Shown here: piece by piece, positions 27,679 through 35,847 of the stretch
Numbering within the stretch: the first letter of the stretch is position 1
How the letters are laid out: each line of letters begins with the position of its first letter
Assembly (NCBI GenBank): GCA_012729505.1
Contig: JAAYDA010000072.1
Span: 1 to 64,000, forward strand
Length of the DNA stretch: 64,000 nucleotides
Reading direction: 5' to 3'
Source of the DNA: Syntrophomonadaceae bacterium
GTDB taxonomy: Bacteria > Bacillota > Syntrophomonadia > Syntrophomonadales > DTU052
The notes under the pieces: model-generated
What the model saw: the letters and a program-made list of their open reading frames with translations, nothing else
The model's database searches: none
What the model was told of the DNA's origin: nothing
Translations under genes and position numbers: made by a program

Positions 27679-27814
27679 ATAAAGTAAGACTTGATTCAGG
27701 TGGAGTTTTGACTCCATCTGAATCTTAGTCGCACGAATCCAGGGACTTAACTGCCCTTGGGCACCCGCCGCCTATAGAGGCGGGGGTCTTAGGGCAGATT
27801 AGTCATCGGATAAA
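27679..27814 (+). repeat. 136-bp two-hairpin repeat, copy 1
   Basis: ATAAAGTAAGACTTGATTCAGGTGGAGTTTTGACTCCATCTGAATCTTAGTC...GGGCAGATTAGTCATCGGATAAA; one substitution vs 35712-35847 by eye. Confidence 0.95.
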
Positions 27815-27870
27815 ATCATATATTCCGCTTGCAAAGCAAAAAATCCTGCAACCCAATATTAATATTTAGA

Positions 27871-28119
27871 GGCGGGAGGCGAAAGGCGTGAGGCGGGAGG
27901 GGAAGCAGAGACGTAAGCGGAATTCACCCGCACCAATAATATATCAGGAGAAAAACCATAGCAGATGCCAAGGCGGGAGGCGAAAGGCGGGAGGGGAGAG
28001 GCGAAGTGGGGAAACGGAGAACGTAAGCGGAATTCACCCGCACCAATAATATCAGGAGAAAGAACCGGTAGCAGATGCCAAGGCGGGAGGCGAAAGGCGT
28101 GAGGCGGGAGGGGAAGCAC
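27871..28119 (+). repeat. G-rich minisatellite, ~2.3 units of 101/110 bp
   Basis: GGCGGGAGGCGAAAGGCG at 27871, 27972 and 28082; ACGTAAGCGGAATTCACCCGCACCAATAATAT at 27911 and 28021. Confidence 0.93.
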
Positions 28120-35711: not shown

Positions 35712-35847
35712 ATAAAGTAAGACTTGATTCAGGTGGAGTTTTGACTCCATCTGAATCTTAGTCGCACGGATCCAGGGACTTAACTGCCCTTGGGCACCCG
35801 CCGCCTATAGAGGCGGGGGTCTTAGGGCAGATTAGTCATCGGATAAA
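35712..35847 (+). repeat. 136-bp two-hairpin repeat, copy 2
   Basis: Matches 27679-27814 except GCACGGATCC versus GCACGAATCC. Confidence 0.95.

Follow-up and report, generated by a model that had tools for sequence, protein, structure and literature searches.

Two copies of a two-hairpin element in the window

The window analysed here is a stretch of 64,000 nucleotides from a Syntrophomonadaceae bacterium (assembly GCA_012729505.1, contig JAAYDA010000072.1, positions 1 to 64,000), and it carries two copies of a non-coding element of 131-136 bases. Copy 1 (positions 27679-27814, + strand) sits just upstream of a periplasmic-binding-protein gene, and copy 2 (35712-35847, + strand) has a gene for RNase H on one side and a zinc-ribbon gene on the other. 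Nothing in the surroundings of either copy points to a local function. An earlier note on this DNA had described two 136-bp copies that differ by one base, both bounded by ATAAA and both containing two modules closed by GACTT and TTAGTC, and our alignment agrees with this description. The copies are identical at 135/136 positions, with a sole A/G difference in the linker at position 27736. A 19-mer search yielded 2 matches where 0.04 are expected by chance. A GC-rich tandem repeat with a 110-bp unit (2.3 copies, 27869-28116) lies immediately beside copy 1.

As written in copy 1, the element begins with ATAAA (27679-27683, +), a pentamer that alignment and empty sites identify as the element's own end and that is near-invariant among copies. 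Hairpin 1 follows (27688-27730, +; foot GACTT/TTAGTC), then a linker (27731-27743, +) and hairpin 2 (27744-27804, +; foot GACTTA/ATTAGTC), where both hairpins are defined by fold and covariation and are arranged in direct rather than inverted orientation. The linker bases ATCC (27737-27740) pair with GGAT (27808-27811) near the right end. The copy closes with a second ATAAA (27810-27814, +), which is target-derived and variable among copies. When the copies of the host genome are aligned, the unit starts with ATAAAGTAAGACTT and finishes with TTAGTCATCGGAT plus 3 further bases. The complement of the written strand is the proposed active strand, on which the left pentamer becomes a TTTAT 3ʹ end and the right pentamer becomes the 5ʹ flank. 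The order on this strand is TTTAT, CCGAT, hairpin 2, linker, hairpin 1 and TTACTTTAT, with boundaries after TTTAT and after TTACTTTAT.

A conserved fold with covarying hairpins

Compared with shuffled sequences, the element folds with z-scores of -8.9 (RNA) and -8.4 (DNA). The alignment of 99 distinct sequences was fitted to the model, which biases it in favour of the structure, and a few of its sequences are antisense; in it, double-sided changes occur in 28 of the 34 base pairs. The same analysis counts 209 double-change cells versus 66.5 in shuffles, and slid controls are far lower. These covarying pairs bear out the prediction of a structured element. No Rfam family scored above its gathering threshold, and a search of open-licence papers gave no description of the element, so neither source offers the exact match to a described family that would have made the element a known one.

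In relatives the linker sequence is TTATCC (GGATAA on the active strand). The base that follows the left ATAAA and the base that precedes this motif form a covarying pair beyond those of the model, complementary in 57 of 58 cases (G:C in 39, T:A in 18). The linker in relatives is therefore able to pair with both ends. In the host genome, all that is left of this arrangement is the 4-bp ATCC/GGAT pairing and a short left pairing.

About fifty copies in the host genome

The host genome is a draft of 2.45 Mb in 80 contigs, and it holds about 50 dispersed copies of the element with unrelated flanks. A DNA search recovers ~41 full-length copies, the exact 13-base core of the right end occurs 46 times, and a covariance model gives 53 matches at E<=1e-6; about half of the covariance-model matches in each genome are antisense readings of the palindromes, and these were left out of copy counts. 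Numbering the two copies as a pair, as the earlier note did, is thus correct for the window and incorrect for the genome, and the outcome that would have spoken against a genuine element, namely only two copies and no covariation, is not what the genome presents. The copies are mostly intergenic and form two subfamilies that are distinguished by compensated changes in hairpin 2. Where copies stand in tandem, they have one ATAAA in common. Divergent tandem copies are found at the ends of host contigs C30 and C70 (loci L107 and L116), and tandem arrays likely broke the assembly at these ends.

Single-hairpin derivatives that keep both terminal regions are present at L033:3666-3726 and L271:2711-2783; a deletion between repeats of the foot sequence, GACTT or TTAGTC, apparently gave rise to them. 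All exact right-end cores in the host genome were located, and those not already accounted for proved on reading to be only decayed, cut-off or single-hairpin copies, so an autonomous version in this genome was rejected.

Patchy distribution across bacterial classes

Multicopy relatives with the same two-hairpin plan were found in Syntrophomonas, Sporomusa, Pectinatus, Pelosinus, Massilibacillus and Desulfosporosinus. When 84,980 species genomes were scanned for the pattern, the matches listed included those six genera and several metagenome-assembled genomes (MAGs), and nearly all of these matches carry the same two hairpins. Syntrophomonas genomes hold about 6-11 copies apiece, which are 79-85% identical to copy 1. 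For Desulfosporosinus sp. PR, roughly half of the 150 matches listed are antisense, which leaves at least about 75 copies. Presence is otherwise sporadic. Four genomes from another genus of the host's family have no copies, 8 of the 63 genomes searched in the host's class have the element, and an evenly drawn sample of the host's phylum has it in 4 of 399 genomes, a figure that includes the host genome and two Syntrophomonas genomes. The family is therefore patchy rather than general. The phages, plasmids and viral contigs searched gave no match.

In a tree of the elements, which has 133 columns, limited resolution and only moderately supported deeper forks, the sampled host copies form one clade (100/100) that groups with the copies of a Negativicutes MAG. 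The Syntrophomonas copies group with those of Sporomusa, even though Syntrophomonas belongs to the same order as the host. The conflict between the element tree and the host tree, together with the patchiness, suggests horizontal spread, as far as comparison of sequences can indicate.

Insertion at a pentamer without target-site duplication

Empty sites were sought by comparing the flanks of Syntrophomonas copies with sister genomes, and five clean pairs of filled and empty alleles were obtained. In every pair the target is a single pentamer (ATAAA in four, ATGAA in one), or TTTAT and once TTCAT when read on the complement. At the four ATAAA sites, the pentamer stands once in the empty allele and twice in the filled one, and the junction is otherwise unchanged. 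The fifth site is informative about polarity. In its filled allele, ATGAA is retained on the right and the left end reads ATAAA, which excludes a target-site duplication and fixes the polarity of insertion: the pentamer on the right comes from the target, and the one on the left is carried by the element.

The end pentamers of other copies follow the same asymmetry. Across all genera the right pentamer is more variable than the left, and the two are often unequal, which again implies that no target site is duplicated. Right and left variants number 15 and 6 in the host genome (n=42, where the right-hand count includes two stray matches), 10 and 2 in the Negativicutes MAG (n=20), and 8 and 2 in Sporomusa (n=23). 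Outside the terminal pentamers the information in the flanks is close to background, with a slight preference one base outside, and the element has no terminal inverted repeats. A miniature inverted-repeat element (MITE) of the type that duplicates its target is ruled out by the ATGAA site and the unequal pentamers, and a long target of the bridge-RNA type (IS110) is ruled out by flanks that are nearly uninformative beyond the pentamer.

Judged by comparison of genomes, the element is a non-autonomous mobile element. This possibility had been raised from the two copies in the window, and the genome-wide count and the empty-site comparison that were suggested for it yield about 50 dispersed copies, the five filled/empty pairs and a spread across classes.

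Orientation relative to replication

For 37 of 45 copies in the host genome, the written strand lies on the strand of negative GC skew (p=1.5e-5). This places the proposed active strand on the G-rich strand, which is the lagging-strand template. The same bias holds for 14 of 17 copies in divergent or convergent gene contexts (p=0.013), and its presence where neighbouring genes point in different ways speaks against transcription direction as its sole cause. Syntrophomonas copies have a similar bias (9/11). Copies in Sporomusa, Desulfosporosinus and the MAGs are divided about in half, with no strand bias, and we therefore regard the bias as supporting rather than decisive.

Comparison with known elements and the search for a helper enzyme

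IS200/IS605 elements have neither terminal inverted repeats nor target-site duplications, and their insertion point lies 3ʹ of a tetra- or pentanucleotide (PMC7290912). The transposase of such elements binds to subterminal hairpins and acts on the lagging-strand template while it is single-stranded, and a guide leads it to the cleavage site (PMC6006769). The element shares several of these features with PATEs, the ends-only derivatives of IS200/IS605 elements (autonomous types IS608 and ISDra2). It is non-coding, lacks terminal inverted repeats and target-site duplication, inserts 3ʹ of a pentanucleotide that matches its own end, and has imperfect subterminal hairpins at both ends. However, its hairpins fill the whole length and are served by one common linker, the order at its left end would be site-hairpin-guide rather than site-guide-hairpin, and inspection of the alignment did not recognise a guide of the canonical IS608 kind, in which a tetranucleotide immediately 5ʹ of each foot pairs with the cleavage site. 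By analogy, the element would work like a non-autonomous IS200/IS605 element (PATE). We do not file it as a member of that family because common ends with a TnpA, the one feature that could establish membership, were looked for and not found in the genomes compared.

The search for such an enzyme covered the host genome and its relatives. Domain searches of the host genome revealed no Y1_Tnp, no Y2 HUH transposase and no TnpB domain; since this genome is a draft, an enzyme gene may have been lost among unassembled repeats. In Desulfosporosinus sp. PR, for all its copies, the Y1 search turned up no more than a fragment. A Y1 match is present in 15 of 18 element-bearing genomes, and many of these are of RAYT-like length. 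At the loci read, most Y1 genes of relatives encode 250-300 aa and are bounded by other ends, and no clear element match stands beside them (best E 0.057). Some RAYT-like Y1 genes in relatives are bounded by repeated sequences of the GGGACGGTTCTG/GGGACAGG type, a different kind of end (L119-L124, L232, L234, L236). Among the genes listed as adjoining elements, no transposase recurs, and among the genomes compared and the Y1 loci read, no TnpA- or TnpB-encoding element has ends in common with the one described here. The IS200/IS605 link entertained in the earlier note is supported by features of the mechanism, namely the absence of duplication and inverted repeats, a pentanucleotide target at one end and hairpins at both; as no TnpA with the same ends was found, it is, as in that note, possible but unproven.

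Classical MITEs (RUP, Correia and ERIC-like elements) are likewise short, non-autonomous, dispersed repeats that fold. Compared from general knowledge, the element is not one of them, because it lacks both terminal inverted repeats and target-site duplication. REP, BIME and REPIN sequences resemble the element in being small, palindromic, intergenic, high in copy number and arranged in tandem arrays. However, the element is not a REPIN or BIME, as its hairpins are direct, it has no GTAG or CGTC tag, and it has no RAYT neighbour. In kind the element is PATE/REPIN-like, and it is unusual in the conservation of its sequence across bacterial classes. It keeps both sequence and fold across these classes and is abundant in several genomes, unlike REPs, which are described as species-specific (PMC6006769).

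Proposed mechanism and rival explanations

We consider it somewhat probable that this is a non-autonomous, single-strand ('peel-and-paste') element that is mobilised in trans by a putative IS200/IS605-like enzyme. As the filled and empty alleles show, insertion occurs at a TTTAT-like pentamer that becomes the 5ʹ flank, and the element supplies its own TTTAT as the 3ʹ end. During replication or repair, the single strand may fold into two hairpins, and a Y1 HUH transposase resembling the TnpA of IS200/IS605 may then bind both by their common GACT and AGTC feet. The excised strand would form a circle and be joined 3ʹ of another TTTAT, with the linker between the hairpins (GGATAA on the active strand in relatives) guiding both ends. 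A single acquisition, probably a horizontal one, presumably brought the element to the host, which then multiplied it to about 50 copies. The helper enzyme may since have been lost, may lie in unassembled sequence, or may never have been a Y1 enzyme. A tentative extension of the last option, doubtful but worth stating, is that this two-hairpin family, shared across classes of Firmicutes-type bacteria, owes its mobility to an enzyme outside the known Y1 HUH transposases, and that its one central linker guides both ends as well as the choice of target.

The main rival, which we regard as rather unlikely, is a site-specific tyrosine or serine recombinase, or another non-HUH enzyme, that would use the hairpins as binding sites and join a circle to its target through a shared ATAAA (or AT^AAA). 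The lack of Y1 and Y2 HUH transposases in the host genome suits this proposal, as does the distribution of pentamer changes, which fall at positions 3-5 on the right and mostly at 1 and 3 on the left (all genera) and are compatible with a cut inside ATAAA. However, the conserved fold is one of single-stranded hairpins that have their feet in common, targets are alike over only 5 bp in otherwise random flanks, and no recombinase recurs among the genes listed beside elements. A structured RNA, an RNA-level regulatory element or a terminator kept by function, with copies spread passively, would account for the very strong fold and covariation, the mostly intergenic placement, and the lower divergence of orthologous Syntrophomonas copies (1.9%) relative to their flanks (6.4%, inflated by a few misaligned flanks). 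Yet this is improbable given the exact insertions at empty sites, the patchy presence in the class, the absence of an Rfam family above threshold, and the lack of any orientation preference relative to genes outside the host genome and Syntrophomonas; moreover, a protein that reads the hairpins would be expected to cause covariation just as well. Mobilisation as a REPIN or BIME by a RAYT (TnpA_REP) seems more improbable still. Two hairpins, high copy number, intergenic tandem arrays and the frequent RAYT-length Y1 matches favour it, but the direct hairpins carry no GT[AG]G guide at their feet in the alignment, the host lacks Y1, and conservation across classes is at odds with species-specific REPs. 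The RAYT/REP reading was set aside because the element does not adjoin RAYT genes, whose own ends are of the GGGACGGTTCTG type.

The clean empty sites, the defined target and the covarying end pairings make both the identity of the mover and the way the element crosses between species directly testable with a 131-base substrate.

Variant forms and a neighbouring repeat

Several elements carry an extra hairpin at the tip of hairpin 2 (L186:38-187, L211:256-392, L153:6534-6681, L169:2355-2477 and L198:7846-7990). Across genera, these extra hairpins share a TGTGCCCTTTGGGTATA-like motif, as though tips had been exchanged between hairpins or had received insertions. A sequence that resembles hairpin 1 and lacks hairpin 2 is found at L129:1701-1740, L130:1924-1959 and L049:1501-1536. 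In S. wolfei and a relative, it stands upstream of a gene that encodes a small proline-rich protein; its surroundings are conserved, and it is perhaps a domesticated or decayed copy. Finally, a second dispersed repeat of ~130 bp stands beside one element copy (right flank of L044, query positions 1304-1433), and three Syntrophomonas genomes each contain it at dozens of positions.
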